Source of the DNA: Halobacteriales archaeon YIM A00010
GTDB lineage: Archaea; Halobacteriota; Halobacteria; Halobacteriales; Haloarculaceae
Reading direction: 5' to 3'
NCBI GenBank assembly: GCA_025041175.1
Contig: JAKCFJ010000006.1
Coordinates: forward strand, 124,001 to 188,000
Length of the DNA: 64,000 nucleotides
The notes under the pieces are model-generated. The model worked only from the letters and a program-made list of their open reading frames with translations. It ran no database searches and was not told the origin of the DNA. Shown in pieces: positions 2,906 to 19,587 of the stretch (positions are counted from its first letter, which is position 1; the number at the start of each line of letters is the position of its first letter). Both the position numbers and the translations under genes were made by a program.

Positions 2906-3286
2906 TCACTCATGGTCATTCAGGAATTCGAGGATAACCTCCCCGTGACAGACGCACGGCACTCCCTCGACCTCGGTTTTTGGCTCCTCCACACAGTAAC
3001 ACCCAATAATCAGCCTCGGCAGCTCCTCTAATGCGACTTTTCTCAAATCCGCATTCTCCTCAGAATACCAATAGTCCTTGAACTCCTTCACGCTCTCCTC
3101 GCGGGTATAGTTCCCGCCATCCTTCTTGAGCTTGAACGGGGAGCCATACTTTGACGAGCGACCAATTCGTTTGTCGGGCGTCGGATGATCATCCTTCGTG
3201 ACGTTCACTAACGTCGTGGGCGTTACACTTCCGTCCAATCGCATCTGTCGAGTTACCATGTCGGATCGACCGCTGTTGTCGTTCAT
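2906..3286 (-). CDS. DUF4326 family protein, 126 aa
   Basis: The family pattern is clear: an N-terminal strand with VNVTKDDHP, the RIGRSSKYGSPFKL segment and a C-terminal CYCVEEP...CVCHGEVILE cysteine/histidine cluster. DUF4326 proteins are small, common in phages and plasmids, and of unknown biochemistry. I chose ATG at 3286 rather than the in-frame GTG at 3304 because a GGAGGT Shine-Dalgarno sequence lies seven bases before it. It is the last gene of a minus-strand group beginning at 3992 and driven by palindrome module M1. Confidence 0.8.
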   Translation of the reverse strand: MNDNSGRSDMVTRQMRLDGSVTPTTLVNVTKDDHPTPDKRIGRSSKYGSPFKLKKDGGNYTREESVKEFKDYWYSEENADLRKVALEELPRLIIGCYCVEEPKTEVEGVPCVCHGEVILEFLNDHE

Positions 3287-3307
3287 GCCGAACCTCCTGT
3301 CCACTTG

Positions 3308-3556
3308 CTAAGGGTGTGCTGGTTCTCGGGGAACTCCACAGCGTACTGCATTTTCTCGTCTCTTCTGCCTACGGAATGTCCGCATGAATGAACGTGCTCG
3401 TTCGGTGTTCGAGGGATTACCATCGCCTTGAACGTATTCTCCATGACGTTCTGCGATTCTTCCCCGTAAATACCCAGTCCACCGGATTTTAATCGGGTCA
3501 TCAAGGGGAGTTTGATCGAAATTTTCCGTTCGCCGGTCGTTGTGCTCCTCAGCCAT
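3308..3556 (-). CDS. Hypothetical protein, 82 aa
   Basis: Small unrecognised, strongly charged protein (MAEEHNDRRTENFDQTPLDD start, arginine-rich C-terminus). The ATG at 3556 overlaps the end of the upstream gene by eight bases, the usual translational coupling in this region, and the stop lies 21 bases before the DUF4326 start. No domain is recognised. A longer start at 3586 is possible but would overlap the upstream gene deeply. Confidence 0.5.
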   Translation of the reverse strand: MAEEHNDRRTENFDQTPLDDPIKIRWTGYLRGRIAERHGEYVQGDGNPSNTERARSFMRTFRRQKRRENAVRCGVPREPAHP

Positions 3557-3992
3557 CGAAACCACCACGCCGAAGCCGAATAGCATCGCGTTTCTCGCGG
3601 ACGCTCCCGGACAGTCGTGTCATGACCGCTTGCAGTCCCGTCCGGGCCTCAAGCTCGCCAAACACCGCCTGGGAATGGAGGTACGCTACTGATCCCGGAC
3701 GCGAGTGGAGAGTATCAGAGTAGCGATTGACCGCTTTCATTTCGATCACGTCCGTCTGGTCAGTGTAGCTCCCACTCGATGCGTGCCGTCCCGTGACGAT
3801 AAACCACCCCTCTGGATCACCCTCGCCCGTGTACTGCACCACGTCACCCTCTGAGAGGTTGTCCAAGTTGTCGATTCCGACATCGTATCTCTCAACATTT
3901 CCATCAAGATCCTCGATCCCGTCGATCTCCGGATAGTCGGTTATGTAACGAATCTCCTCCTCCACAGCCTCGGTGTCTGCTTCTTGGGCCAT
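3549..3992 (-). CDS. Hypothetical protein, 147 aa, first gene under module M1
   Basis: An acidic N-terminus (MAQEADTEAVEEEI) is followed by a beta-rich stretch (LSEGDVVQYTGEGDPEGWFIVTG) suggesting a small barrel, then an arginine-rich C-terminus. No family is recognised. The start at 3992 is supported because its first ten codons and about 45 bases of upstream DNA are duplicated, inverted, at 6631-6689. It heads a three-gene unit (this gene, the 82-aa protein, DUF4326). Transcription probably starts in palindrome module M1, 32 bases upstream. Confidence 0.65.
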   Translation of the reverse strand: MAQEADTEAVEEEIRYITDYPEIDGIEDLDGNVERYDVGIDNLDNLSEGDVVQYTGEGDPEGWFIVTGRHASSGSYTDQTDVIEMKAVNRYSDTLHSRPGSVAYLHSQAVFGELEARTGLQAVMTRLSGSVREKRDAIRLRRGGFDG

Positions 3993-4023
3993 ATTTCTAC
4001 TATAGCACCCATCACCATAAAAA

Positions 4024-4079
4024 TATGCACTAATGCATAGGCTGCATCTATGCATAGTTTTAATATGCACTAGTGCATA
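4024..4079. promoter_or_regulatory. Palindromic divergent promoter module M1
   Basis: Three dyads in 56 bases: TATGCACTAATGCATA (4024-4039), CTATGCATAG (4048-4057) and the perfect palindrome TATGCACTAGTGCATA (4064-4079), with short TTTTAA spacers. It lies between divergent genes at 3992 (minus) and 4170 (plus). Related modules sit at 6571, 8261 and 9667. A dimeric repressor or activator binding TATGCA-n4-TGCATA is inferred; no regulator gene has been identified. Confidence 0.8.
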
Positions 4080-4082
4080 GGT

Positions 4083-4169
4083 ATGGCTGGGAAGCTTGGT
4101 GCCACGGAAGAAGGTGGCCGCGTGTTGCAACCACGCGACCTCGGGCTTCTCATGTGAGGCAAGAAACCC
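4083..4169 (+). promoter_or_regulatory. Two-hairpin 5' leader with a 24-codon upstream frame
   Basis: Hairpin 1: CGCGTG (4119-4124), loop TTGCAAC, CACGCG (4132-4137). Hairpin 2: GGG-c-TTCT (4143-4150) with AGAA-a-CCC (4162-4169), whose loop holds GTGAGG, a plausible ribosome-binding site just before the ATG at 4170. An upstream frame MAGKLGATEEGGRVLQPRDL plus GLLM runs from 4083 to a stop at 4157. The same arrangement recurs at 9580-9663, and the hairpin part also at 6479-6533. Confidence 0.6.
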
Positions 4170-4490
4170 ATGTCGAGCAAATCAACGACTGAAGTTAAAG
4201 GGAAGGGATCGGATGAACGAATCGTAATCGAAGACAACGGCCAGTGGGGATGGAGTCTGGCCGTGGAAGGGAATATTATCACCGCAAGTAAACTCATCCC
4301 CCACGACGGAACGCTGCTGTACAGCACTAAAACGACCGAGCATAGTCGTAGCTCCCGCCGGCGTGGGAGCCAATTCCAACTGTCAGTCGAGCAGGTTGTC
4401 GGTCGATACTGCCAACATTCTCAGACGGAGCGATCTACACAAGAACTCCTCGCACACGTGCGAGAGGCGCGTGAAAAAGGTCAGCAGTAG
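4170..4490 (+). CDS. Hypothetical protein, 106 aa, behind the M1 leader
   Basis: Unrecognised small protein. Residues 15-50 look beta-rich (RIVIEDNGQWGWSLAVEG, a pattern seen in small haloarchaeal proteins), and the C-terminus is helical and charged. The ATG at 4170 follows the SD-bearing hairpin of the leader directly. It is the only plus-strand gene of module M1 and is followed by 190 bases without a gene before the convergent DpdA-like gene. Confidence 0.55.
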   Translation: MSSKSTTEVKGKGSDERIVIEDNGQWGWSLAVEGNIITASKLIPHDGTLLYSTKTTEHSRSSRRRGSQFQLSVEQVVGRYCQHSQTERSTQELLAHVREAREKGQQ

Positions 4491-4681
4491 GCACGCTACC
4501 CAGCACATTTCCCTACCTTCTACCGATGATTCTATTATCAAGTAACAGTATTCCGGTTTCTATGGATTTATCACCAGCCGAGTGTTACACTCAATCGGAC
4601 ATACCTGCGTGCCTGCGGGATGACCTTGGTCGGCAGCCGGGGGCGATTCACCATTAACCACGGAGCCGACTTTTGATAAGA

Positions 4682-5353
4682 CTAGCACCATGCAGAGAGG
4701 TCCATCTGTCGAGCATCAGCTGGCTCTGGCTCTGTGCTGGTCTCTTCGGTTGCCTGTTCGAGCTGGTCGAGATAGTGCCAGTAGCCGTTTTGGAAGATCG
4801 TCGTTGTGTCTGTGGAATCGAAGCCGGTTCGATAGGCCCATACGAGACCATCCTCTCCCCCCGGATTTCCGATGTGAGTGCGGAGATCTTGATCTCGCGC
4901 TCGGTGCACGATCTCCGCACCGTTGGCCCGCTTCCAGCGTTTAGGCCCGCCGACGAACACGCCCTGACACCCTTCAATGGCGGCAAACTGCTCCTCGACA
5001 GGCAATCCCTGTTGAAGAACCCAATAGCGCATACACTGTCCGCTTCCTACTGGAAGCTTACGCTCGTAGAGCCATTCTCGGTGACGCTCGACGGTCGCCT
5101 CAGCATCTCCGTAGACATCGGGCAACACGAAGAAGTCTGGGGACATCGGCATTTCTGTGAGTGACCTGTCGATGGCCTCATAGTAAGCGTCAGCATCGAA
5201 ATCGCCAGTATACGCGCCGTTATCCAGGAAATAGGGTCCATCGTGGGGTGTCATCTTCTGGGGTGTCCATCCAAAGCCATGGCTGTGTGACGGTGCGTGT
5301 TGCCGTGCTTTTCGGAGATTGTTGGGACTTGCCCCCGTATAGTAAAGATGCAT
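4682..5353 (-). CDS. TGT/DpdA-like deazaguanine transglycosylase homologue, 223 aa
   Basis: The motif order fits the tRNA-guanine transglycosylase superfamily, DpdA branch: YFLDNGAYTG (residues about 42-51, aligned with the nucleophile-bearing DSGGFQ of TGT), SPDFFVLPDVYGDAEATV, a WVLQQGLP strand, VFVGGPKRWKR and HIGNPGG. DpdA enzymes put 7-deazaguanines into DNA, and phage and plasmid versions protect DNA from restriction. At 223 residues it is a compact version without an added PUA domain. No preQ0 synthesis gene is in the window, so the base would have to come from the host archaeosine pathway. ATG 5353 was chosen because MHLYYTGA begins the fold. It is probably the last gene of the module M2 operon. 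Confidence 0.65.
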   Translation of the reverse strand: MHLYYTGASPNNLRKARQHAPSHSHGFGWTPQKMTPHDGPYFLDNGAYTGDFDADAYYEAIDRSLTEMPMSPDFFVLPDVYGDAEATVERHREWLYERKLPVGSGQCMRYWVLQQGLPVEEQFAAIEGCQGVFVGGPKRWKRANGAEIVHRARDQDLRTHIGNPGGEDGLVWAYRTGFDSTDTTTIFQNGYWHYLDQLEQATEETSTEPEPADARQMDLSAWC

Positions 5354-5369
5354 GATTGAAGAAAAAAGA

Positions 5370-5486
5370 TCAGCTACTGACGATCCACACCGTCTCGCAC
5401 TCGCCACACTCGCCTGTTGTGGGGCCGTCTAACCGCCCTCCGACGAAGATATTCTGCGAGTTGCAGTTACGATTAGGGCAGTTCAT
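5370..5486 (-). CDS. Tiny zinc-ribbon protein, 38 aa
   Basis: The frame reads MNCPNRNCNSQNIFVGGRLD then GPTTGECGECETVWIVSS and stops. Two cysteine knuckles (CPNRNC and CGEC) make a minimal zinc ribbon. The ATG overlaps the 3' end of the preceding gene by 14 bases, and the stop is 16 bases before the DpdA-like start, so it fits the operon. Its role is unknown; the position next to a nucleic-acid-modifying enzyme is suggestive only. Confidence 0.6.
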   Translation of the reverse strand: MNCPNRNCNSQNIFVGGRLDGPTTGECGECETVWIVSS

Positions 5487-5832
5487 GGATGAGCGTCCCC
5501 TCCTTTTTCGTGAATACACCGCAGTTTGTGCATCTCACAATCAGGGTGTCCTTATCGTCTGCGTCGTCCTCGTTCTCCTCGTGTTCGACAACCACTGCTG
5601 TTTCCTTGCAGTTCCAGCAGGGAGCCCTGACCAAAGGCTGGCCGCTCACCTCGACATATCCAATGTGACGGCCACAGGTCCCACAGCTGACCCGTTCGTG
5701 CTCGTGATCGGTCTCGCAGTTGGGATCGTCACAACAATAACCCGGAGCGGGATGTCGCTCGATCTGATCCTCATCCATCTGATTGAGGAGAATATTCGGC
5801 CGATTCTCATCGGCCGTATGGGTTCGCCCCAT
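5473..5832 (-). CDS. Cysteine-rich zinc-binding protein, 119 aa
   Basis: Contains CCDDPNCETDHEHE, then SCGTCG, CWNC and CTNCG pairs, enough for two zinc ribbons, with an acidic linker (HEENEDDADDKD). The ATG at 5832 shares its A with the TGA stop of the upstream gene, which fixes the start. No catalytic motif is present. It belongs to the M2 operon upstream of the 38-aa zinc ribbon and the DpdA-like enzyme. Confidence 0.65.
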   Translation of the reverse strand: MGRTHTADENRPNILLNQMDEDQIERHPAPGYCCDDPNCETDHEHERVSCGTCGRHIGYVEVSGQPLVRAPCWNCKETAVVVEHEENEDDADDKDTLIVRCTNCGVFTKKEGTLIHELP

Positions 5833-6107
5833 CAATCGCTCACCTCCCCTGAGACAGAGACAGAGTGACCGCACGCAGGGCAGTCCACCTCCTCGATGAG
5901 ACCGTAGTCCTCACTAGAATCGTGAATCACGTCGTAGAACGTCGCCTGCGGAATCCACGCCCGCATTGCTGTGTCGATATCAGAGACCTCGACACAAACC
6001 ACAGTCCGTCCGAACATCCGCTTCTCGACATCGAGATCGTCAATCTTCCAGATCCTCGACTGACCGTCCGACCCCGAAAACAGCCGATCGGATGCGATCT
6101 CACTCAT
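5832..6107 (-). CDS. Hypothetical protein with C-terminal CPxC knuckle, 91 aa
   Basis: Unrecognised. A mixed alpha/beta N-terminal part is followed near the end by DCPACGHSVSVSGE, half of a zinc site. It overlaps the preceding gene (stop near 6104) by four bases and is coupled to the following gene through TGATG. Codon use is ordinary for the region. Confidence 0.6.
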   Translation of the reverse strand: MSEIASDRLFSGSDGQSRIWKIDDLDVEKRMFGRTVVCVEVSDIDTAMRAWIPQATFYDVIHDSSEDYGLIEEVDCPACGHSVSVSGEVSD

Positions 6108-6481
6108 CGGTCGCCCTCCGGTGAGAACTCACCCTCGAATTGAGAGTATTCGATGCCACGTACGATCACTCCCTGCGTATCTTCTTCGATGGTGTCACAT
6201 TCGAATTCAGTCGGGGTGATCATCCACTCGAATAGCTCCTCACATCCGACGCCTATGATCCTGAGCGTGTTGCGTTGGCGGGGGAGACATTTCGCATCCG
6301 AAAAGAACGCCTCAACCCGGAGCGAAAGCGCCTTCGCTGGATCATCATTAACTACTGCTTCCAACGCCACGCGTTGCCAAAACTCGTCATCAGGCATTGC
6401 CTCGATATCGCACACGTGCTCGTGCTCGCTCTCACCGTTCGATGCTTCACTTTTTTCAATCGTCGAGTTTGATTCCGCCAT
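6104..6481 (-). CDS. Hypothetical acidic protein, 125 aa, first gene of the M2 operon
   Basis: A polar N-terminus with a HEHVCDIEAMPDDEFW stretch leads into a predicted alpha/beta body. No family is recognised. The start at 6481 directly follows a leader hairpin identical over 55 bases to the one before the gene at 4170, although these two proteins are unrelated. The operon continues through four more genes to 4682. Confidence 0.6.
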   Translation of the reverse strand: MAESNSTIEKSEASNGESEHEHVCDIEAMPDDEFWQRVALEAVVNDDPAKALSLRVEAFFSDAKCLPRQRNTLRIIGVGCEELFEWMITPTEFECDTIEEDTQGVIVRGIEYSQFEGEFSPEGDR

Positions 6482-6533
6482 GGGTTTCTTGCCTCACATG
6501 AGAAGCCCGAGGTCGCGTGGTTGCAACACGCGG
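6479..6533 (-). repeat. Leader hairpin copy, 55 bases identical and inverted to 4118-4172
   Basis: Read on the minus strand it contains the same two hairpins (CGCGTG/CACGCG with loop TTGCAAC, then GGG-c-TTCT/AGAA-a-CCC) and ends in the ATG of the gene at 6481. The small upstream frame seen at 4083 is interrupted here by a TGA, so the RNA structure, not the peptide, is what has been preserved in this copy. Confidence 0.7.
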
Positions 6534-6570
6534 TCACTTTCTCAGTGATCTCGCGCTTCCTAGCTACACC

Positions 6571-6626
6571 TATGCACTAATGCATCATAAAACTATGCAT
6601 AGGTGCAGCCTATGTAATAGTGCATA
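6571..6626. promoter_or_regulatory. Palindromic divergent promoter module M2
   Basis: TATGCACTAATGCATC (6571-6586), CTATGCATAG (6593-6602) and TATGTAATAGTGCATA (6611-6626). It is the reverse complement of M1 in order and spacing. It separates the operon starting at 6481 (minus) from a duplicated gene start at 6659 (plus). Confidence 0.75.
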
Positions 6627-6658
6627 GGTTATATGGTGATGGGTGCTATAGTAGAAAT

Positions 6659-6709
6659 ATGGCCCAAGAAGCAGACACCGAGGCTGTGAAGGTGGAAAGT
6701 GATGAGTGA
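6659..6709 (+). pseudogene. Duplicated first codons of the gene at 3992
   Basis: Reads MAQEADTEAVKVESDE and stops. The first ten codons and about 45 upstream bases equal the start of the minus-strand gene at 3992, after which the sequence diverges. This is a copied promoter-plus-start cassette; its stop overlaps a new ATG at 6702, so it may now act as a leader peptide for downstream reading. Confidence 0.6.
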
Positions 6710-6961
6710 CGGATGGGGATTGGATGATCTGGATCAAGAGAGTCAGAATGCGATCTTCGACGCTATGTATGACGTTTCCGACCGGTGGGACGTACGATCG
6801 ACGAGGCGGAGGTGTTCTTAGAGAATGTAGGATATTTCAGATTCCATGAACATCAGCGCGACTCAGCCCGAACCGACAAGCATCAGTGTTGGAAGTGTGA
6901 GCGGCCCGTCGTTGGAAGCAGCAAAAGAATTAGCCGAGTTCTGGAGTGTGAATTTCGGTGA
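6702..6961 (+). pseudogene. Frameshifted small zinc-finger gene
   Basis: MSDGWGLDDLDQESQNAIFD and onward to DRWDV runs from 6702 to 6821. A second frame from about 6785 continues with DEAEVFLENVGYFRFHEHQR and a CWKCERP knuckle to a stop at 6961. Together they look like one gene with a frameshift near 6785. A further peptide MVKKCRHCGGKDH at 6983-7021 may be part of the same decayed gene. Family unknown. Confidence 0.35.
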
Positions 6962-7108
6962 TGTAGAAGTATTAACTATTTAATGGTGAAGAAATGCCGC
7001 CACTGCGGAGGAAAAGACCACTAGAATGGTTCAGTATCGCTCTTGTGGAGATCTACAACGAAGGAAAGCGAGCGTCTTTAAGCTAGTGACCGACACGGGT
7101 TTTGTGAT

Positions 7109-7167
7109 CCATGAGTACGTCTGATAGGACCCTGTGAGGGTCGTCTAGAAGGTTTCGTTACTCATGG
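7109..7167. terminator. Nested inverted repeat at an operon end
   Basis: Outer arms CCATGAGTA (7109-7117) and TACTCATGG (7159-7167) enclose an inner hairpin GACCCT-gtg-AGGGTC (7128-7142). It covers the stop codon of the minus-strand gene ending at 7158. It could be a transcript-end structure. Confidence 0.35.
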
Positions 7168-7889
7168 TCGATCTTCTCGTCATGGACCACGAACTCGATA
7201 GTCCGATCGGGATGATCCTTTTCTGCCTGCGTTCGTGCGGCGATCCGCGACTCGGCCGTCACTTCGATCCTATATGGATCGAGTTCGAAATTTTCGAATG
7301 AGATCGCCCACTGATGCTGTACTGACGTGGCATCTGGATGGATTGCGTAGAATTTTCGTTCTCCACGATCGCATTCGGAGCAGTCTGTCCCGATCTTTTC
7401 CGGAGGCTTGGCAGCACCAGCGAAGGTCCCAATCGTCGTTATTCCGCCGCAATGGCGGCACTGGTAGCTACCATCGAAGATTTCGCCTGTTGCCGTGTCT
7501 GCCGATTCATCACGCCCAGCCTGCTCTATAGCATCAAACACCTCCTGAAATGGATCTTTAGTTGGGTCGGGTGGGTCCGACGTGAAGTGCTCGAATCCGG
7601 CATCCTCGAATACTTCGAGGCTTTCTTCGATGTCTGATGAGGTGATCCGATAGTAGACTGGTAGTCCGTTCCGACCTCCACCAGAAACCGCCGCTACAAA
7701 GTCGCTGTCACCGATGGAATTGACCTCTAAGCGGTAGCCTCCCGGCGCACCTTCGTCTAGATGCAGTTCGAATATCGGATAGTCGCCATCCCACAACTCA
7801 AAGTATTCCTCACTCTCAATTTCCTCGTAGTTGGGGTGGGCATCCACTGCCGTAATGAAATCGTTCTCGCCAGCAAGATAGTCGCTCAT
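7158..7889 (-). CDS. Hypothetical protein with internal zinc ribbon, 243 aa
   Basis: Residues 1-110 form an unrecognised alpha/beta region. At about 140-180 lies a zinc ribbon (CRHCGG ... CSECDRG), and the last 60 residues form a separate small domain ending DRTIEFVVHDEKIDHE. The start overlaps the upstream gene by four bases (ATGA), so both form one operon from module M3. Acidic composition is normal for a haloarchaeal cytoplasmic protein. Confidence 0.65.
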   Translation of the reverse strand: MSDYLAGENDFITAVDAHPNYEEIESEEYFELWDGDYPIFELHLDEGAPGGYRLEVNSIGDSDFVAAVSGGGRNGLPVYYRITSSDIEESLEVFEDAGFEHFTSDPPDPTKDPFQEVFDAIEQAGRDESADTATGEIFDGSYQCRHCGGITTIGTFAGAAKPPEKIGTDCSECDRGERKFYAIHPDATSVQHQWAISFENFELDPYRIEVTAESRIAARTQAEKDHPDRTIEFVVHDEKIDHE

Positions 7890-8254
7890 TGCTCATTCTC
7901 TTCGGTTTCAATCGGATGCCGATCACCGTCCTCGTAGACAGCACCCCGGTATGTGATCGGGGCGTCCACTGCCTCTGAGAGGATCTTGAATAGTTCCTCA
8001 GTCAACCCCTCATCCGCTTTTTTTATCCCCTCACAGACGACATCCCACAGTTCCTGAAACATATCAGGGCGATGCTCTAGCATGATAGCGATGTCTTTCG
8101 GAAGTTCCTTCGTGATCCGTTGCCGAACCCGGTAGACCGACTGATCCGTCTGTCGCTGTGTAGGGTCATCTTTTTCTGCGATGTGATCTCGATCCGTGTC
8201 TGTCATGGTTGCGCGATAGCGTCCCATTGATGTGGTGGTGTTCTGTCCCATCAC
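7886..8254 (-). CDS. Hypothetical protein, 122 aa, first gene left of module M3
   Basis: Mostly helical, unrecognised, with a polar N-terminus (MMGQNTTTSMGRYRATMTDT). The first codons of this gene are duplicated at 9755 next to module M4 (MIGQNTTTMGHTATT), which supports translation from about 8254. A later ATG (MTDTDRD) remains possible. Its start lies seven bases from the M3 palindrome block. Confidence 0.6.
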   Translation of the reverse strand: MMGQNTTTSMGRYRATMTDTDRDHIAEKDDPTQRQTDQSVYRVRQRITKELPKDIAIMLEHRPDMFQELWDVVCEGIKKADEGLTEELFKILSEAVDAPITYRGAVYEDGDRHPIETEENEQ

Positions 8255-8260
8255 GGATCA

Positions 8261-8347
8261 ATCTATGCATTGGTGCATCATAAAAACTATGCATAGATGC
8301 AGCCTATGCAATAGTGCATAGTTTTTATGATGCACCAATGCATAGAT
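8261..8347. promoter_or_regulatory. Palindromic divergent promoter module M3 with 33-bp perfect inverted repeat
   Basis: Arms 8261-8293 and 8315-8347 are perfect 33-bp reverse complements. They contain TATGCATTGGTGCATC, CTATGCATAG, TATGCAATAGTGCATA and ATGCACCAATGCATA dyads, four sites rather than three. The block lies between the minus-strand gene at 8254 and the plus-strand protease gene at 8362. As single-stranded DNA or RNA it could fold into one long hairpin. Confidence 0.85.
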
Positions 8348-8361
8348 AAGGGTGTAATACG

Positions 8362-9009
8362 ATGATGAGACAGATGCAGCTCGATGATTATGCGACCTCC
8401 ACTTGTTCATCGAGAGAGAAGCAGGGACATCAAGGCCCACCTCGGGTTGACGATCCGACTGAAGAACACAAACAGCAGTTGATCGAGCAGGCCCAAGTCC
8501 ACGCTCGAACGGTCGATTTAGATATCGACGTCGACGTGATCGAATGGGAGGTTTCAACGAATGCTCAACGAACACGTCGAGCGGGAGATTGTCGATATAA
8601 ACCCCAGACGGACCAGCTCACGATCACGCTGACGTGGGCGGCCTACGTCGCGTGGGGGTGGGAAAAATTTTCAGCGGTAGTTCGTCACGAGCTCGCCCAT
8701 GCCTACCAGTACAGTAAAACCGGTCAAAGCGGACATGGGTGGGCATTCAAGCGCCTAGCCCAACAGGTAGATACACACATCAGGTGTGAGCTATTCACGA
8801 CTGGGCGGTTGTTAGTCTATTGTGATGAAGGATGTGAAGACCACCGGAACAAGGCGAGCAAGCTAGTGAAACATCCAGAAACGGCGTATTGCCGGACACA
8901 CGATGCCTCGTTTACGATCGAACACGTGGCGACAGGTCGGACGTGGACGGATTACGACGGCTATAAACAGCAACGAGAAGCGATCGAACGCTCGGATACC
9001 GGGTGGTAA
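8362..9009 (+). CDS. SprT-like zinc metalloprotease, 215 aa
   Basis: Zinc site HELAHAYQYSK near residue 115 (HExxH) with the downstream GHGWAFKRLA segment that supplies the third ligand in SprT/Spartan proteins. The C-terminal part carries CDEGCEDHR and CRTHD cysteines, as in the SprT zinc ribbon. SprT-family proteases act on DNA-bound proteins in eukaryotes; archaeal roles are untested. The first 35 residues are low-complexity and may start instead at a second ATG. It is the right-hand gene of module M3. Confidence 0.85.
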   Translation: MMRQMQLDDYATSTCSSREKQGHQGPPRVDDPTEEHKQQLIEQAQVHARTVDLDIDVDVIEWEVSTNAQRTRRAGDCRYKPQTDQLTITLTWAAYVAWGWEKFSAVVRHELAHAYQYSKTGQSGHGWAFKRLAQQVDTHIRCELFTTGRLLVYCDEGCEDHRNKASKLVKHPETAYCRTHDASFTIEHVATGRTWTDYDGYKQQREAIERSDTGW

Positions 9010-9189
9010 CTCACCTCTTGGCTATTAAAGCGAAAACCACCATTGGTGAAGTGAGATATCCTCTCTGCGTTACGAGTGGTTAGTGCAGAACAATATAGTT
9101 CGACAGCTGATTTACCTCACTCTTCAAGATATTCGGAGAGTCACCGGTGTACCCCCGTGCGTCCGGACGTTTGTCGCCATACAGTCAGC

Positions 9190-9579
9190 TCATCGAACGT
9201 TGTCGCGTTGACGCACCCGGACAGGGAAATACCGGTCCGACTGGCCCATCACAGATGTGATCGTCACCTGCCGGACAGGAATGTTCAATAGCATACTTGA
9301 CAATCCGTGATACAAACGGTGTGTGTCGTAGTTCATCGTGTAGATCGCCACTATTGCGGCTTTGACGAGATGTTTGCAGATTTTGCCTCGGAAATGGAAA
9401 TCCGGACCATCACACGCGCCGACATCAAGGTTGACGGTGTACTGTTCCGTACCTTCAACCATCACCTCAACGGAGTTGATAACCGAAACCGCCATATCCT
9501 CGTTGCACGCCCGAACAAAGCGGTCGTGATCAATCGGTCGGTCACAATTGTTTTCAACCGAGGGTGTCGTTGTACTCAT
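9190..9579 (-). CDS. SWIM-type zinc-finger protein with an altered ligand, 129 aa
   Basis: The central segment YTVNLDVGACDGPDFHFRGK followed by ICKHLVKA matches the SWIM pattern CxCx(n)CxH, except that the second cysteine is glycine (CDG instead of CDC). SWIM modules bind DNA or protein partners. The first half is an unrecognised helical region. ATG 9579 follows directly on the SD-bearing leader hairpin. Reading on the other strand (9307-9699) is a shadow. Confidence 0.65.
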   Translation of the reverse strand: MSTTTPSVENNCDRPIDHDRFVRACNEDMAVSVINSVEVMVEGTEQYTVNLDVGACDGPDFHFRGKICKHLVKAAIVAIYTMNYDTHRLYHGLSSMLLNIPVRQVTITSVMGQSDRYFPVRVRQRDNVR

Positions 9580-9663
9580 TGGCTTCTAATCACCTTTGAG
9601 AAGCCCGGTTGGGCGCTGCAACGCCCGGCCACATTTCCTGTGACCTCCGTCCTTCTCAGCCAT
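9580..9663 (-). promoter_or_regulatory. Two-hairpin leader with 25-codon upstream frame (second full copy)
   Basis: Upstream frame MAEKDGGHRKCGRALQRPTG plus LLKGD from 9663 to a stop at 9586. Hairpin 1 is GGGCG-TTGCAG-CGCCC (9611-9626), and hairpin 2 is GGCTTCT/AGAAGCC (9581-9605) with GGTGATT in its loop. Compared with 4119-4169 the stems differ in sequence but keep pairing, and the TTGCA loop is kept. Confidence 0.6.
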
Positions 9664-9666
9664 ATC

Positions 9667-9745
9667 TATGCACTAGTGCATAATAAACTCATGTACTAAT
9701 GCATAGGCTGCATCTATGCATAGTTTTAATATGCGCCAGTGCATA
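9667..9745. promoter_or_regulatory. Palindromic divergent promoter module M4
   Basis: TATGCACTAGTGCATA (9667-9682), CATGTACTAATGCATA (9690-9705), CTATGCATAG (9714-9723) and TATGCGCCAGTGCATA (9730-9745). It drives the SWIM gene to the left; to the right only a duplicated gene start remains. Confidence 0.75.
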
Positions 9746-9754
9746 GATTGATCC

Positions 9755-9829
9755 ATGATAGGACAGAACACCACCACAATGGGGCATACCGCTACAACGT
9801 CCTTTCGATCAAGGAATACGACAAGATAG
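9755..9829 (+). pseudogene. Duplicated first codons of the gene at 8254
   Basis: MIGQNTTTMGHTATTSFRSR plus NTTR and a stop. The first eight residues repeat the start of the protein at 8254 and then diverge. It is a second case of a copied promoter-plus-start cassette in this region. Confidence 0.55.
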
Positions 9830-9839
9830 ACTAGCGCGA

Positions 9840-9877
9840 CCGGGTGGTTTGTAGGGGTTCGAGTCCTCTTTCGCGTT
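9840..9877 (+). other. tRNA 3'-end-like sequence, possible attachment scar
   Basis: AGGGG-TTCGAGT-CCTCT (9853-9869) has the length, loop consensus and pairing (one G-T) of a TPsiC arm and is followed by TTCGCGT, where an acceptor strand would lie. No anticodon or D arm is recognisable upstream. Such 3' tRNA pieces are left by tRNA-targeting integrases, but the match is short. Confidence 0.3.
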
Positions 9878-9983
9878 TGGTGAATTCCTGCTATGACATA
9901 CTGTCGCTAAGCATCACACGAACTACGCCGAAGGCACGGAAAACAGCGAGAGTTTATAATTCATACTGTCCTATTCGTAACAA

Positions 9984-10583
9984 ATGAATAGTTCCCATCC
10001 AGATCCACCAGCAGGCTATCAAAAGCCCTACGAGCCAATGACAGCGATTTCATGGTTAGACCTATTTCCTGGTGAGGTTGGCTTACTCGTCGGCGCAGTC
10101 GGGCTATTTGGTGGGTTAGCAGGCGTTTACTCAGACATCGCAGCTGTACTTGAGGTAGTGAGGCGGGCAGCAACGCTTGACTCATTTGGGGTGTATCTCT
10201 CATTGGTTGGGGCTGTCGGGAGCTCAATCCTCTTTCACGAGGGCGTGCATGTTCTGGCAGCGCGTTTGTTGGGCTGTGACGCACATATAGAACGAAACGG
10301 TCTAGAGCCGCATGTCCGGCTTTGTGGTGGCTTTCTCTCTCGCCGTGCTGATGCAATGATTTCCCTCGCTCCGGCAGTCGTACTGACGATAGTTGGCCTG
10401 CCATTGCTAGTGGTGGTTGAGTCGGCGTTCGGGGTGGCGATCGTGGCCACGGCCTTGGTGACGAACGTCGCAGGCAGCGGCAGGGATATCGCGTCTGTAC
10501 TGGCGCTGCGACAGCTTCCACCGGGATCGCTACTATACTACAGTGATACGCAACTCGCCTACGAACCGTCGCCCGTCCGGTAA
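9984..10583 (+). CDS. DUF3267-type membrane metalloprotease, 199 aa
   Basis: HEGVHVLAARLLGC (HExxH) near residue 83 lies within a set of four to five hydrophobic segments, with a C-terminal TNVAGSGRDIASVLALRQLP motif typical of the family. It is predicted to be an integral membrane zincin with unknown substrate. The ATG at 9984 begins a polar 25-residue cytoplasmic tail. It stands alone, just before the gene-free motif field. Confidence 0.75.
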   Translation: MNSSHPDPPAGYQKPYEPMTAISWLDLFPGEVGLLVGAVGLFGGLAGVYSDIAAVLEVVRRAATLDSFGVYLSLVGAVGSSILFHEGVHVLAARLLGCDAHIERNGLEPHVRLCGGFLSRRADAMISLAPAVVLTIVGLPLLVVVESAFGVAIVATALVTNVAGSGRDIASVLALRQLPPGSLLYYSDTQLAYEPSPVR

Positions 10584-10674
10584 TCGAGCGGGGGCCGCCC
10601 GTCCGGTGGCTGGATAGGGATCGCAGTCTAGGTGGGGCCGGAGTGTCGACGTGATCGGGCATTCGGGAACGTAT

Positions 10675-11720
10675 TGCTGGCCGGGGGCCAGTCAGCTGTC
10701 GCTGGTTGCTAGTCCGGTGATTGTTGCTCAGCTGGGAGTCGAGAGTGTGGTCGCCGTGTTCAGGAGTCGGAAGCCGATGGCGTGATGGGTAGGAGTCAGG
10801 CAGTGCTGTTGGTGGTGATTGGAGCCATGGGAGTCGGGGCTGAATGACAGATCGAGAGTCAGGTGATGGTATTGCTGGTGGGGAGTTGGGGATGATGTCG
10901 TGGATTCGAGAGCTAGGGGATAGTTGGCTTGGGAGTCGGAGGATCGTCGTTGGGGGGGAGTCGGTGTAGTGTTGCTGATGAGGTAGCGGTATGCTGTCGC
11001 GGAATCAGCGGTATGGGGTGTCGGTGCTGTTACCCTCTTGAGCACCGTTATGGGGTGGTCTGACAGGCTTGGGCCTGTCAGGCCCCCCACTGCTGTCGTC
11101 GTGATCGTCGAGGAGCTGGTGTTGTTGCTACTCTGGCCCCCGGAGTGTCGTCGTGGTGCTGATGCAATGTCTCGCTATCCTTGCCTTGGCCCCCAAGGTA
11201 GTGAGACGAGCTGTGCTGTACCGGTGATTTCGAAGACTGGCCCCCTCGGCCTGTCGAGAATTTCGATGAGTTGGTGTTGTTGCTGAGCTGGCCCCCCAGA
11301 GTTCGTCGTTGCTGGTGCTGTGCAGTGATCGGGCTGTTGGCCCCCGGAATTCGTCGTTGTGATAATCGAGCACTAATTGGCCTTTCTGGCCCCCAGTGTG
11401 CTAAATCACTGGGAAGCCAGGGCTCGATCTTGCTGGCCTGACTCCCCCACGGTGTCATCGCTGTGCTGTCGCTGTCTCGCTGTTGCGGTGCTGTAGTGTG
11501 TTGCAGTGCTGTACTGCTGCTGTAAGCTTGCTCTGCTGTTTCCTCCGGTATCGACCTGAGAGGAACTCTCAGAATTGCTGTGCTCTCGCTGACTCCCTCT
11601 GAGGACCACCTATCCTGACTCCCCAGTGTTGTTGCTTGCTGGACTCCCACGGAATTCGCTGCTTCCCTGACTCCCCCAGGGCTGTCACTCGCTGCTGTAC
11701 TAGTCTTAAGCCCCCTTGAG
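10675..11720. repeat. Gene-free field of short motifs reversing orientation around a hairpin
   Basis: Left part carries GGGRGTC/GGGGGCC-type motifs (ending at 10689, 10740, 10768, 10797, 10835, 10860, 10887, 10937, 10962), spaced about 25-29 or 50 bases. Right part carries the reverse complement, GGCCCCC or GACTCCC (starting 11081, 11135, 11188, 11239, 11290, 11339, 11388, 11440, then 11591, 11617, 11642, 11669), spaced 49-54 and later 25-27. A perfect hairpin CTGACAGGC-ttgg-GCCTGTCAG sits at the switch (11060-11081). Frames crossing it are low-complexity and not credible genes. Confidence 0.7.
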
Positions 11721-12628: not shown

Positions 12629-15600
12629 CTATCGAAGAACGTAGTCCGTTGAGCCTCCTTTCTCCGTTGATTGCTGTTCTTGTTCACTCTCTTCATTGGG
12701 AGACGAGTCAGCGGCATCATGTTCCTGCTGCTCGCTGGTTGCATTGGGTTGTTCGTCGCTAGTGGTGTCCTCAGTACACTCTGGATCGCTAGCGCTGGTA
12801 TTAGGGATGAGCGGACGTATCTCTCCCTTTTCGTAGATCTGTGGACTATCGAACTCGTCGTTGTTGTCGTCAGGGAATACGACGAACATGAAATCGTCCT
12901 CGGTTGGCCGCCGTGTCTCGCCCGACGCATCAACGAATTCGCGCTCGGGAATGAACGGTGGGCGGATCGGCTTCCAATCCTGTTTCAGCTCACCCTTCGT
13001 CTGGTAGGTCCTCTGTTCGCCGTCGACGTGAACTTCGTATCCATCGGCGGTACGCTCGTAGTATGCCGGGAATGCCTCACCATCAGCGGTAAAGACAGCC
13101 TCGTAGTCCTCGAACCGTGCGCGAACAGTTCCTTGCCCGCCTTTATCCTCCAAGACGATTTCGCCACTATCACGTTCTCGCCATTGGAGACTCTTCGTGG
13201 TTTTCGGACGGAGCACTCCGACACCCGGCTCGAGCTTCATCTCCTTGCTCAGATTGTAGAAGATCCGATCCCCGACGTTCCCCTCCTCATCGACGGAGGC
13301 CTCGCTCACGAACGTGAGTGTCCCATAGTCCGTGTTGATGTCCGTGCTTCGCCCTTCTGTGTGGTAGATGACCCGCTCTCCACGGCGCGCCCAGTACTCG
13401 AAGAGACTGTTATGACTCGGGATAGCGTCGGGATCGTCGAAGTCCTCGGGGTTGTAGCTCCCATCCTTGCAGGCGAAGACGCATTTTTTGCCCTGTTCAA
13501 CGGCTTTCCGGAGATTCGTTAGGGTTTGTTTCGGCTTCTGGAGCGTGGTGGTCTCCGCCTCGATCGCTATGTCCTTGCCGTCCGAAATCTCGTAGAGACG
13601 GCTATACTCAGTTTCACATTTCTCTTTTAATCGCTGGTACTCTGCATCGCTAGTCGCCTCTGCAAGTGGGTTGATCGGCAAATCCGCTACCCCATCGGGC
13701 AACTCCTCGCCCTCTTGTGATGGAAGCGACGCATCTGCGCCCAATACGAGAAACGTCTTCAACGATTCGCGTAGGATGTACCGATGGGCAGGTCCGCCTG
13801 CATTCTCGGCGCTGCCGGTGTCCTGTTGGAATAGTTTGTTTCGTCCAGCAGCGGTGAGAGAGACTTTCTCGGTTCCTTCACGGCGTGGCTCGACGTATTC
13901 GCCGTACATCTGTTCAATCTGATTCGAGAATTTTGCGTCCGACAATTCGATATCAGTCCGCGTCTCGAACTCTTCATGCACCCGATCGACCGTGACCAGC
14001 CTGGTGCCATCGTTGTCGTCGCTCGCTCGCACAGAACACACGAACAGCGCCTCTAGGATAGAGTCGGCCAAGAGCTGGTCAGTGTCTCCTATGTCGATGT
14101 CGACCGCACCAGATCGTTCAAGCGCCCCTTCACCGTCTCGAATCAGCACTGCATCACGGATTTCTTCGGCAGTTTGGGTCGGAACGCCATGCTCTCGAAG
14201 TTTCTCCTCAATCAGTTCATCACGCTCGGCGCGCGTTAGTAACGGAGGATACTCGGGAAGCGAGTACATCCGGAATGGTTCTGAGGCCTGCTGCTGATCG
14301 GGGAGATCGAGCGTCATCCACGCGTGGAATGGGACATCGCGTTTCAGTGTCTCTGGGTCCATCCCGATATTCTTCGCCACAAGCCGCGAGTCTTTGGGCG
14401 AGCCCGGCGAGAAACTGACCCACGTGTCGCAGTTGGCCGCAAGGGCAGGCAAAACGCTCTGAATTTGATTGGGATACTGGCAGGACAAAAACAGCGAGAG
14501 ACGGTATTTACGACTCTCTGAAAGCATCTGATCGATTGCTCCATCTTGGGTCGCAAGGTTATCGAACTCGTCGGCAATGAGATAAAACGGCGACCGTTCG
14601 CTGCGGTCCAGCTCGGCCCGCGCACGGATGACCGACCAGATCCGTCGAAAGACGGCAGTCCCGATCATCTGCTTCAAGTCACGGTCCTCACGCCCCATTC
14701 GGACAATAATCAGTTTATTGTTCTCCACCGCCTCCACGAGGTCAATTGGGGAATTCCGCAAGGACATGAATTGCCGAGCAACAGGCGATTCCACCCAATC
14801 CTTGAATCGTCGCCAGAGGGGTTCGAGTGCGTTCGAGTCCTGTTCAGCGACGTCTGCGATTTTGTCAGCTGAATCAGCCAGCAGGTTGAGGCCCGCTGCT
14901 CGCACCGTCTCGGCAAACCGGCGAGCATTTTCTGGGGACTCAACGATGTAGAAGAGATCGGCGGGGGTGAACTCGTATTTGCTCTGTGCCGATGCACGGA
15001 CAAGTGAGGCAGTCACACCGTCCATCCGTGGCCCCCAACCTTGCGAGGCTCCGAGCATATGCCGAAAGTCAGCAACCAATGACTCAACGGCCTGATCGAA
15101 TTGAGGAGAATCAGGTGATATCGACGGATTCAGGAAGTTGAATCCAGAGACGCGCCCTCGTGTGCTCCCCGGTTCGATCCACACAACATCGTCCCGTCGT
15201 CGCTCCGGCAAGATTTCAAGGAGTTCTTCGGAGTCGTCACCGCCGGGATCGATGAAACACCCGCCTGCATCCAGCTCAGCGATTTGGCGGAAGACGTTCT
15301 TCAGGAAAGTCGATTTGCCATATCCCGTTGTTCCGAAACAGGCAACATGGCGGAACATCGAACGCTGGTCGATCTTAACATCCCGTCCACGACGGGTTCC
15401 GATCCCGAGCCAGATAGGTGCATCGTCGTCCCAGCAGCCATGTTCCATCATTTTTCGTGCGCGCTCGGCGGCAAACACTACATCACGGTCAGCATCGTCA
15501 GGCAGATCAGAATCGGTGTCAATGCCATGTGCCTTGACTGGCGCTCCCTGGACCCGGTCAACGTTGTCAATACGGTAGCGGAAGGGCCACGATTCGTTGT

Positions 15601-15640
15601 CATCACTGTGCTCCGTGCCGCCTGTCTGTGTCTCACTCAT
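12629..15640 (-). CDS. VirD4/HerA-like coupling ATPase, 1003 aa
   Basis: Walker A GTTGYGKST near residue 105 and Walker B LIADEFDNLA near 350, with SVRASDDNDG-type winged-helix sequence behind the motor. The FtsK/HerA/TraD superfamily drives DNA through membrane pores. A long C-terminal extension includes a nuclease- or sensor-like stretch (RLYEISDGKDIAIEAETT, GKKCVFACKDG) and a disordered acidic/glutamine tail. There is no N-terminal membrane segment, so the coupling protein may be anchored by a neighbour. It is the last gene of the minus-strand transfer operon starting at 20735. Confidence 0.85.
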   Translation of the reverse strand: MSETQTGGTEHSDDNESWPFRYRIDNVDRVQGAPVKAHGIDTDSDLPDDADRDVVFAAERARKMMEHGCWDDDAPIWLGIGTRRGRDVKIDQRSMFRHVACFGTTGYGKSTFLKNVFRQIAELDAGGCFIDPGGDDSEELLEILPERRRDDVVWIEPGSTRGRVSGFNFLNPSISPDSPQFDQAVESLVADFRHMLGASQGWGPRMDGVTASLVRASAQSKYEFTPADLFYIVESPENARRFAETVRAAGLNLLADSADKIADVAEQDSNALEPLWRRFKDWVESPVARQFMSLRNSPIDLVEAVENNKLIIVRMGREDRDLKQMIGTAVFRRIWSVIRARAELDRSERSPFYLIADEFDNLATQDGAIDQMLSESRKYRLSLFLSCQYPNQIQSVLPALAANCDTWVSFSPGSPKDSRLVAKNIGMDPETLKRDVPFHAWMTLDLPDQQQASEPFRMYSLPEYPPLLTRAERDELIEEKLREHGVPTQTAEEIRDAVLIRDGEGALERSGAVDIDIGDTDQLLADSILEALFVCSVRASDDNDGTRLVTVDRVHEEFETRTDIELSDAKFSNQIEQMYGEYVEPRREGTEKVSLTAAGRNKLFQQDTGSAENAGGPAHRYILRESLKTFLVLGADASLPSQEGEELPDGVADLPINPLAEATSDAEYQRLKEKCETEYSRLYEISDGKDIAIEAETTTLQKPKQTLTNLRKAVEQGKKCVFACKDGSYNPEDFDDPDAIPSHNSLFEYWARRGERVIYHTEGRSTDINTDYGTLTFVSEASVDEEGNVGDRIFYNLSKEMKLEPGVGVLRPKTTKSLQWRERDSGEIVLEDKGGQGTVRARFEDYEAVFTADGEAFPAYYERTADGYEVHVDGEQRTYQTKGELKQDWKPIRPPFIPEREFVDASGETRRPTEDDFMFVVFPDDNNDEFDSPQIYEKGEIRPLIPNTSASDPECTEDTTSDEQPNATSEQQEHDAADSSPNEESEQEQQSTEKGGSTDYVLR

Positions 15641-16844: not shown

Positions 16845-17122
16845 TATGTATCACCTCCTGCTGGTGACTCTGCGTTACTCATAGCGTCGAGTGGATTGAT
16901 CCACACAACGTCGTCAGTCTGACCAGTCGCTTCGTGGGCTAGATCGGTGACGATCTTCTCCCTTTTGTCGTCGTGGGCACGGAGCCACGAGTCCCACCAC
17001 GAGGAGAGTATCGCGGTCCTTCCGATCCCAGTGAAGCCGACAATACAGCCCTCCTCGGCCACTTTGTCGGCTGTGAACGGGCCGTCGATGACAAGCCGAT
17101 CGTCAGATGTGTCTTCAGTCAT
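16844..17122 (-). CDS. Small transfer-operon protein with degenerate P-loop, 92 aa
   Basis: Contains CIVGFTGIGRTAILSSWWDS, which looks like a Walker A loop whose lysine has been replaced by arginine, then DDVVWINPLDAMSN. It reads like a detached, inactive piece of a VirD4-type ATPase. The start overlaps the VirB4 stop by four bases, and the end meets the start of the 393-aa gene. Function unknown. Confidence 0.55.
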   Translation of the reverse strand: MTEDTSDDRLVIDGPFTADKVAEEGCIVGFTGIGRTAILSSWWDSWLRAHDDKREKIVTDLAHEATGQTDDVVWINPLDAMSNAESPAGGDT

Positions 17123-19587
17123 GATTGTCTGTTATGAGTCATGTCGAGATTCGCTGCTGCGTCGGGATCGATCACCGGCACTTCCTCGGGTAACGCCTCA
17201 ACGCGGAGCGGGAACTTCCCCTCATCTTCGACCGATAACAGTGCCTGCGAGTACCCCGCGTGAGTCTGTCCCGCTGTCGCGTTAGTGATGTAGTTGACTT
17301 CCCGCTGGGTGAGATCGAGACTTTCAGCTTGCTCAGCTGTGACCTCCTTGAGTCGGTGAAGGAACTTGATCGTGCAGTTGTCGATGATCGCTTTGGCGTC
17401 CTCGCGCTCGTAGAACTCATCAAGCGTCTGGGTGATGAACTGGATCGAAAGGTCGTGATGGCGCGAGAATCGCGTTCCTTGCTCCAACCATGTCAGGCTC
17501 TCGCTGTTCTTGATTAGCCGCCACGCCTCATCGATCGGAAGAATGACGCGCTTGTCGGTTGTTTTCGCCCTCTCGTAGATCGTGTTGAACAATACTTTCG
17601 TCATCAACGATGTCTGGCTATCGGTGTCGTTCGCCTCAAGGTCGAGGTACACTACGTTCGAGCCGGAGATATCGATCTCCGTCGGTTGGCCTAAGTGACC
17701 CAGCGGCCCCCCAGGGCGGAACGGTTGGAGCGCGATTTTCAGCCCTGTTGCATGACCCTGCCAGTTCTTGACTTCCTCGTCGGGGATCTCGAATGCCGCT
17801 GCATCCGTACTCGAACTCTCAACGCCACCATCGGTTGCCGCTGCGTCTGGTGCATCCGATGAAAGGAACGCAGCAGGCGTCACCGCTTGGTCACACCACG
17901 TGGCAGCATCAGACGGTGGCACATCCGCTGCATGAGCCACCGTGTTCGGATCCGTCTCGGCAATATCCCCGAGTGTGGTGATGTCAGCTTCCTTCAGTCG
18001 ATCGGCTTCCTCCTTCGTGATGTCTGGCAACTCTGTCACAGACGCCTGTTCGGGCGCACTCGTGGCTGTGACTCGATGCCGCTCGACATCGAGACCCGGT
18101 AGATCGTCCACCACGTCGGGCGTGATTTGCATCCCAGTGTTTGAGAGATGGATATACGGCTCAGGGTTGCGGCTGATCGCGCCTAGAATAGACCGCACAT
18201 CAGGGATTGTCGGGCTCTGATTGGAGTGGGTTGCTGGATCGTTCGTGATCCCATATAATGCGTAGGTGAGATCGAGCGCAAAGGCAAGAATCGCCCGCCG
18301 TTCGGTCGTATAGCTGCTATCTCCTCCCGACGACGCATTCATTGCGAAGTAACTATCGAACATATCTAGCGCCGACGAGCGCGCTTGCTGGAATGGATCG
18401 TAGTCACCATCCATCTCCGCACGGACATGATCCGGTATGGCCTCGATTTCGAGCGGATTAATAGAGCAACTACCATCGACCGGGATGCGATCTCCGTCTA
18501 ACGCATCAACGAGGTGGTCGAAACCACCCCGTGGATCGATGATGATCACGATCGTCCCGGGATCGCGGGCGACGCGACGAAGCAGATTTAGTTTCGTGTT
18601 GAACGATTTTCCCGCGCCAAGCGTCCCTGCCACGATGGCGTTATAACTGGAGCGGGAAAACCGGTCCATCACGATCGGCGCGTCGGTGAGAGCGTGGTAG
18701 CCCATGAGCACGCCCTCCTCTTCAATGAGCGAGGTGGTCGAAAACGGGAACATTGTCCCAACTGCGCCTCCGAGCATCGTTTTGGTGCGGTTCACTCGGT
18801 CGAGATCGAGCGGACTTCCAGACACCAACCCCTCCTGCTGTCGGTAATCTGCTGGTTTAACGGTCAACCGGCGGGTTTTAAGCTTCGTTTCGATATCATT
18901 GGCCGCCTCTTCCAGCCGATCGGGATCGTCACCGCGCAAGATGACATACACTCCAACATCGAAGGCTTCGTCCTGTCCTGTCGAGAGGAGATCGTAGACA
19001 TCCTCGTGGGCCTCAAGTCGCCGCGTCGTGTCCCGTAGTGTCACATCACTGGTCTCGCTTTTCTGAGCGACTCGTACCTGTAAGTCCTCGATAGCAGATT
19101 TGAGTCGACCGATCGCATTAAGCCGGTCGTGATCCTTGATATGAATCGACACGTCGACATTTACGTGGTCGGCATCTGCAAATAGCCGTTCAAACATCTT
19201 GGGACGCGCGTATTCTGGATAGCCTTCAATATAGAGGACCTTCGCAAATATATCGCTCGTCTGGGCGTCTGTCGGCGCGATGCGGAGACTCGCAGGCGCG
19301 ATGAGATCTGCGGCGTACTTCCGCAACGACCGTGGGTCCTCGGTTGCCTTCGGTTCGGCGTCATCATCCTCCTTGGACAAGTCCTCTGGGTCAATCTGCT
19401 CAATCACCGCTTGCGCCTGTGTCGACGACACATTGGCGGCTGACGCAACCTCATCGACAACCTCATCGCTGGCTATGTTGGGAGTTTCCTCATTAGCTTC
19501 TGATCGCTTGAGGATCGCTGCTGCTGTCTCTTTGATGTAATCGATTCGTCTGGGGTCATGGTCCGTCTCGGTGGTATCGCTGCTCAT
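17119..19587 (-). CDS. virB4: VirB4/TraC-type secretion ATPase with internal helix-hairpin-helix insert, 822 aa
   Basis: An N-terminal CagE/TrbE-like region precedes Walker A GTLGAGKSF near residue 330. DPRGGFDHLVDAL and Walker B VILPIDEAWRLI (about 680) and SIQFITQTLDEF complete the motor. Between the two ATPase halves, about 495-570, is a helix-hairpin-helix module (LPDITKEEADRLKEADITTL then GDIAETDPNTVAHAADVP), unusual for the family. VirB4 powers pilus assembly and substrate transfer at the membrane. The first 70 residues are an acidic helical extension. The gene follows the VirB3/PrgI-like gene by 17 bases. Confidence 0.85.
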   Translation of the reverse strand: MSSDTTETDHDPRRIDYIKETAAAILKRSEANEETPNIASDEVVDEVASAANVSSTQAQAVIEQIDPEDLSKEDDDAEPKATEDPRSLRKYAADLIAPASLRIAPTDAQTSDIFAKVLYIEGYPEYARPKMFERLFADADHVNVDVSIHIKDHDRLNAIGRLKSAIEDLQVRVAQKSETSDVTLRDTTRRLEAHEDVYDLLSTGQDEAFDVGVYVILRGDDPDRLEEAANDIETKLKTRRLTVKPADYRQQEGLVSGSPLDLDRVNRTKTMLGGAVGTMFPFSTTSLIEEEGVLMGYHALTDAPIVMDRFSRSSYNAIVAGTLGAGKSFNTKLNLLRRVARDPGTIVIIIDPRGGFDHLVDALDGDRIPVDGSCSINPLEIEAIPDHVRAEMDGDYDPFQQARSSALDMFDSYFAMNASSGGDSSYTTERRAILAFALDLTYALYGITNDPATHSNQSPTIPDVRSILGAISRNPEPYIHLSNTGMQITPDVVDDLPGLDVERHRVTATSAPEQASVTELPDITKEEADRLKEADITTLGDIAETDPNTVAHAADVPPSDAATWCDQAVTPAAFLSSDAPDAAATDGGVESSSTDAAAFEIPDEEVKNWQGHATGLKIALQPFRPGGPLGHLGQPTEIDISGSNVVYLDLEANDTDSQTSLMTKVLFNTIYERAKTTDKRVILPIDEAWRLIKNSESLTWLEQGTRFSRHHDLSIQFITQTLDEFYEREDAKAIIDNCTIKFLHRLKEVTAEQAESLDLTQREVNYITNATAGQTHAGYSQALLSVEDEGKFPLRVEALPEEVPVIDPDAAANLDMTHNRQS

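Follow-up and report, generated by a model that had tools for sequence, protein, structure and literature searches.

Between positions 4024 and 9745 of the DNA analysed here (the window, 64,000 nucleotides of contig JAKCFJ010000006.1 from Halobacteriales archaeon YIM A00010, positions 124,001 to 188,000), four clusters of a palindromic sequence, modules M1 to M4, lie at the promoters of a group of small genes. An earlier account made from the sequence alone, referred to below as the original prediction, described them as the divergent promoter modules of an undescribed regulon; it overlooked a structured leader RNA present at three of the promoters. On balance, M1 to M4 appear to be copies of a two-layer control cassette that moves among haloarchaea: a repressor that can be swapped and an RNA switch that is shared. 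The operators and the gene that stands divergent at M3 are as follows.

4024-4079: M1 operator; dyads 4024-4039 and 4064-4079, central CTATGCATAG 4048-4057; flanked by divergent starts at 3992 (minus) and 4170 (plus)
6571-6626: M2 operator; dyads 6571-6586 and 6611-6626, central element 6593-6602; inverted copy of M1
8264-8344: M3 operator; dyads 8264-8279, 8305-8320 and 8329-8344, central element 8287-8296
9667-9745: M4 operator; dyads 9667-9682, 9690-9705 and 9730-9745, central element 9714-9723
7886-8251, minus: A3 family gene, 121 residues; PHROG 26393 (5e-18); read as leaderless from TATA spacing

The dyad, TATGCANNNNTGCATA, is concentrated in the modules. At up to two mismatches the window has 15 matches, against 1.07 expected from shuffles, and 14 of the 15 are in M1 to M4; at up to one mismatch, nine of the ten sites in the whole 6.0-Mb genome fall there. 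Random occurrence across the genome, which would have undermined the original prediction, is thus not what is found. The predicted clusters are also real in outline, but the count of three or four dyads per module was too high: M1 and M2 have two good dyads each and M3 and M4 three each, the extra one being the central CTATGCATAG scored as a dyad at two mismatches. Are the order and spacing fixed over four modules, as had been proposed? M1 and M2 constitute an inverted duplication (arms 3955-4175 and 6476-6696, complementarity 88-96%), and M3 and M4 have an inverted flank in common (89%), so the modules are not four independent cases. Nor does each lie between intact divergent genes, which holds only for M1 and M3; on the right side, M2 runs into a truncated duplicate of the beginning of gene 3992 (minus) and M4 into one of the beginning of gene 8251 (minus), which makes these two half-modules. 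The outer inverted repeat of M3 (33 bp) is perfect. The dyads are placed around a TATA box or start site, e.g. at M3, where a dyad immediately follows TTTTTATG and the A3 start is 32-35 bases further, a spacing that fits a leaderless A3 mRNA. A stray dyad with one mismatch is found at window 41116-41131, within the span of a 471-residue open reading frame (ORF).

At M1-right, M2-left and M4-left the stretch from start site to AUG folds as a three-way junction of helices P1, P2 and P3 (folding z -1.4, -2.3 and -4.5, respectively). RNAalifold found no consensus in a plain MAFFT alignment of the full leader set, and a covariance model (R1) was therefore grown from seven well-aligned leaders; R2 is a later covariance model.

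4089-4151, plus: leader RNA, M1-right; R1 3e-6 (outside R1 training set), R2 2.3e-9 (in R2 training set)
6502-6559, minus: leader RNA, M2-left; R1 6e-6 (outside R1 training set), R2 6.8e-9 (in R2 training set)
9598-9657, minus: leader RNA, M4-left; fold z -4.5; sequence part of model training set

R1 thus recovers the M1 and M2 leaders without having been trained on them. Two-sided changes are present at 13 of the 22 base pairs among 18 leaders and at 19 of the 22 among 79. Two-sided cells in the larger set number 231, compared with 76.6±7.2 in shuffles, a comparison inflated by relatedness, and with at most 36 when partners are slid, a control that retains relatedness. Paired cells amount to 92.7% in the 79-leader alignment, which leans toward the structure of the covariance model to which it was fitted. 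The 5' untranslated region (5'-UTR) therefore carries a conserved structured domain, as riboswitches do. Rfam 15 has no gathering-threshold match in the window, and a permissive scan of seven leader loci gave none at E≤1.

The P1 5' strand is repeated just before the AUG, e.g. GAAGC ... GCUUC ... GAAGC-AUG, so that the P1 3' strand has two possible partners. The second copies in the window are:

4161-4169, plus: second P1 5'-strand copy AAGAAACCC, M1-right; abuts AUG 4170
6482-6490, minus: second P1 5'-strand copy, M2-left; abuts AUG 6481
9580-9587, minus: second P1 5'-strand copy AGAAGCCA, M4-left; abuts AUG 9579

In a set of 89 non-redundant leaders, pairing of the P1 3' strand with the pre-AUG segment of the same leader averages -10.3 kcal/mol; segments swapped among loci give -7.8±0.17 (0 of 300 permutations reach the matched value) and shuffled bases -6.9. 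In the second state the pre-AUG bases are paired in 84 of the 89. At 93 of 102 leaders an ORF of 35 residues or more starts with its AUG 7-30 nt past P1, as against 46 of 480 control offsets. As the pre-AUG segment and the AUG are both outside the covariance model, their pairing and position offer independent support for the structure. A TATA-like box starts 27-32 nt upstream of P1 at 70 of the 89 loci; this is the usual archaeal spacing, and would place P1 at the transcript's 5' terminus. The helix at the AUG and the junction are mutually exclusive, and the former represents a possible expression platform, as judged from the sequences.

A nucleotide motif, approximately GAAAAnnGTnYCG, is common to the otherwise unrelated ORFs that follow the leaders. 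It is situated near codons 9-13, within the first 40 nt of the ORFs (e.g. window 4170-4210 plus, 6481-6441 minus and 9579-9539 minus), with T at the third base of codon 11 in 79% and G at the first base of codon 13 in 94%. Pairing of this motif with the leader was looked into and rejected, there being no signal (matched -14.4, permuted -14.7).

How widespread are these elements? At E≤0.01 (R2 E-values are rough), 192 of the 391 haloarchaeal genomes have leader matches, and these represent 64 of 86 genera; in a phylum sample of 247 genomes the 16 positives are all in the window's own order. Halobacterium salinarum NRC-1 has one copy on plasmid pNRC200, on the minus strand at 219790-219856 with gene VNG_RS11530, and the leader is also found in viral contigs and isolated viruses; blastn of the window region against phage records gave no match. 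The genes downstream encode diverse small proteins, several of them small zinc-finger proteins. The dyads have a different distribution. A search of the 391 genomes for two-dyad clusters, which the original prediction had proposed, found none besides those of the source genome; it was confined to the haloarchaeal class, first broader scans having been too permissive outside it. What related plasmids and viruses keep is the layout and the leader RNA, with other operators. In the 100 nt upstream, perfect 6+6 dyads are present at 39 of 89 loci, compared with 8.7±2.6 in shuffles, with centres mainly 40-60 bases before P1. Contig C5 of the same genome has the same layout with a different operator, TTTCCCTAATGGA..TCCATTAGGGAAA, one instance of which is flanked by leaders on either side. 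Operators vary among elements while the leader is kept, and the TATGCA site itself is not the conserved entity. For the window, the sharing of one plasmid-borne operator among divergent promoters is well supported, and 'regulon' is a fair reading.

Which protein recognizes the dyads? The A3 gene at 7886-8251, divergent at M3, is likely to be their regulator gene. Searches with A3 gave no match in Pfam, NCBIfam or the PDB, and the AlphaFold2 model is all-helical, of moderate confidence (pLDDT 72); the role of A3 is thus proposed from its position, its association with operators and the winged-helix proteins that replace it elsewhere. The family is present in 130 of the 391 genomes, and A3 homologues on other plasmids have the same leader on their divergent gene. 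Among the non-A3 leader loci tested, 40 of 48 have a winged-helix protein as the divergent ORF, an assignment that draws on Pfam. Divergent promoters have repeated palindromic operators, as in a CI/Cro-type switch, and the place that a repressor would have is occupied here by a protein with no recognised fold and at the 40 loci by a winged-helix protein. One viral A3 locus (L415) has TATGCA/TTTGCA dyads, and its divergent gene is without a three-way-junction leader match.

A mechanism can be outlined. In the first layer, a small regulator encoded by the element, here the A3-family protein, would bind dyads peculiar to that element where the divergent promoters have their TATA boxes and start sites, and would repress these promoters together, its own at M3 included. 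In the second layer, the non-regulator transcript would start almost at P1 of the three-way-junction RNA. With P1, P2 and P3 folded, the pre-AUG segment would be free and translation on; with the P1 3' strand paired to the pre-AUG copy, the hairpin would end at the start codon and block initiation. A ligand, a protein, an RNA, ions or co-transcriptional timing are candidates for shifting the balance. The elements would exchange operator and regulator, whereas the RNA leader would be kept and drive small accessory genes of many kinds, on viruses and proviruses as well as plasmids. Does the leader represent a natural archaeal RNA switch of a new class, carried by haloarchaeal plasmids and viruses, whose P1 strand can go into either the junction or a start-codon helix and which serves as a common second gate for unrelated regulator-operator pairs? 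The chances for and against this are about equal.

Several findings weigh against the two-layer cassette or limit the evidence for it. The downstream genes do not point to a common metabolite as riboswitch targets would. The SprT gene at M3-right has a leader of ~10 nt with no three-way junction, and the second layer is thus not at every target. A3 stands divergent at 29 of 89 leaders, which is not an unbiased rate, since the choice of loci L342-L401 avoided A3 matches. The predicted A3 model matches no PDB structure and shows no recognised DNA-binding fold. At least two TGCA are present in 23 of 26 'RYRA' A3 loci and in 11 of 42 others (a few rows of the latter are fragments or repeats, and they include TTCCC/GGGAA or TTAGC/GCTAA operator types), but this association of operator with subfamily is confounded by common descent. 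Unpaired bases are rarely strongly conserved (J3/1 A 99%, L3 U 92%, L2 AA 82%), and only few unpaired positions exceed 80%, unlike most metabolite aptamers. Finally, the free-energy values, among them the median of 4.7 kcal/mol that separates the two states in constrained folding, usually in favour of the three-way junction, do not apply to molar KCl.

A protein might fix one of the folds, be it A3, a winged-helix partner, a SWIM protein or one encoded by the host. Control would then be post-transcriptional and exerted by a protein, not by a small molecule as in a riboswitch. Such a reading agrees with the second layer and differs from it only in what tips the balance; it is a tentative but serious possibility. 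The leader is conserved more in structure than in sequence, and the small zinc-finger proteins encoded downstream are consistent with such binding. The downstream proteins and divergent regulators vary, however, while the RNA is constant, which implies that the partner would be a host factor. Could the leader instead be passive, with a 5'-terminal stem that protects the mRNA and a pre-AUG repeat that tunes basal translation, only the dyads and their regulator being regulatory? P1 starts a few bases from the expected start site, the junction is usually the more stable state and conserved unpaired bases are few, all of which would suit a passive stem. Such a stem, however, needs neither a matched second strand copy at the AUG, which is seen in nearly every leader, nor a conserved P2 and P3, and a passive leader is considered unlikely. 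It is also doubtful, to a similar degree, that a host or other plasmid protein binds the dyads and that A3 is a passenger. A3 has no recognised DNA-binding domain, but winged-helix regulators mostly hold the same divergent position at non-A3 loci, and operator type tracks A3 subfamily. A role of the palindromes and stem repeats as DNA-level recombination or cruciform sites for cassette inversion and duplication, to which the M1/M2 and M3/M4 inverted duplications might point, was set aside as highly improbable, as P1 is tied to a TATA box at ~-29 and an AUG 7-30 nt downstream, which is what a transcript would show, the covariation of P2 and P3 is that of stems, and the duplications reach well past the dyads.

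The two-layer cassette can be compared with known systems. CI and Cro of phage lambda form a divergent operator switch. The cassette is similar in that the element itself encodes a small proposed regulator, placed divergently to the genes under its putative control, and in having repeated palindromic operators over both promoters, and it occurs in tailed viruses; it differs in that the promoters are of the archaeal TATA type, A3 is not a recognised helix-turn-helix protein and the partner transcript has a conserved, putative RNA switch leader. Translational riboswitches also have a structured 5'-UTR domain, with a second possible helix extending to the start codon, but the leader has no known ligand, few conserved unpaired bases and no Rfam match, and its downstream genes do not belong to one pathway. 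As of 2021, the fluoride riboswitch of Thermococcus kodakarensis was the only experimentally determined natural archaeal one (PMC8241225). In haloarchaea, the regulation of translation was found to require stem-loops in 5'-UTRs (Brenneis and Soppa, 2009; PMC2636863); that work deals with two selected genes, where the 5'-UTR acts with the 3'-UTR, and its abstract describes no conserved RNA family.

Plasmids pNPA70 (Natrinema) and pHALXA03 (Halopiger) resemble the window in that they carry the 4682-5353 gene family and several divergent promoters with one plasmid-specific dyad. They differ in the dyad, CGTAAC-n-GTTACG, and in having, at those promoters, a short hairpin leader that ends in CCGGTGTTCCCCA ahead of the AUG; each has a three-way-junction leader elsewhere. 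The CGTAAC-n-GTTACG dyad is at several promoters, in 10150-11000 of locus L254 (pNPA70) and 9640-11250 of locus L256 (pHALXA03).

Open-licence PubMed Central (PMC) papers yielded no published description of the shared operator or leader. What appears to be new is the joining of a divergent regulator switch to a putative RNA switch leader absent from Rfam. The finding of the leader in 64 of the 86 sampled genera, on pNRC200 and in isolated viruses makes it testable in tractable strains. The cassette offers a concrete case of mobile elements that exchange regulator and operator but keep one putative post-transcriptional gate, and the exchange would let co-resident plasmids keep their regulons separate.

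The other genes near the modules are listed below.

2906-3304, minus: DUF4326 protein (PF14216, 7.5e-13); possibly on the 3549-3992 transcript
3549-3992, minus: 147-residue protein, M1-left, no function assigned; read as leaderless from TATA spacing
4170-4490, plus: 106-residue protein, M1-right, no function assigned
4682-5353, minus: gene without assigned function; PHROG 15826 (1.4e-18)
5473-5832, minus: small zinc-ribbon protein, M2-left transcript
5832-6107, minus: small CxxC protein, M2-left transcript; weak zinc-ribbon matches
6104-6481, minus: first gene of M2-left transcript, no function assigned
7158-7889, minus: 243-residue protein, no function assigned; overlaps A3, probably same transcript
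8362-9009, plus: SprT-like metallopeptidase, M3-right (PF10263, 5.2e-11)
9190-9579, minus: SWIM zinc-finger-like protein, M4-left (PF04434, E 0.0042, below cutoff)

The SprT-like, SWIM-like and DUF4326 proteins named from the sequence are supported by these matches. The DpdA-like enzyme assigned to 4682-5353 found no support in Pfam, NCBIfam or a PDB sequence search, its sole match being the PHROG without assigned function; homologues are present on four other haloarchaeal plasmids (71-80%). A DUF3267 putative zincin peptidase (window 9984-10583) adjoins the M4 side, and TraG/HerA-like ATPase genes at window 12629-15640 and 17119-19587 suggest a transfer-type module on the same contig. The region 1-16000 of contig C5 (L427) has a second regulon with several leaders and a SWIM gene resembling 9190-9579.

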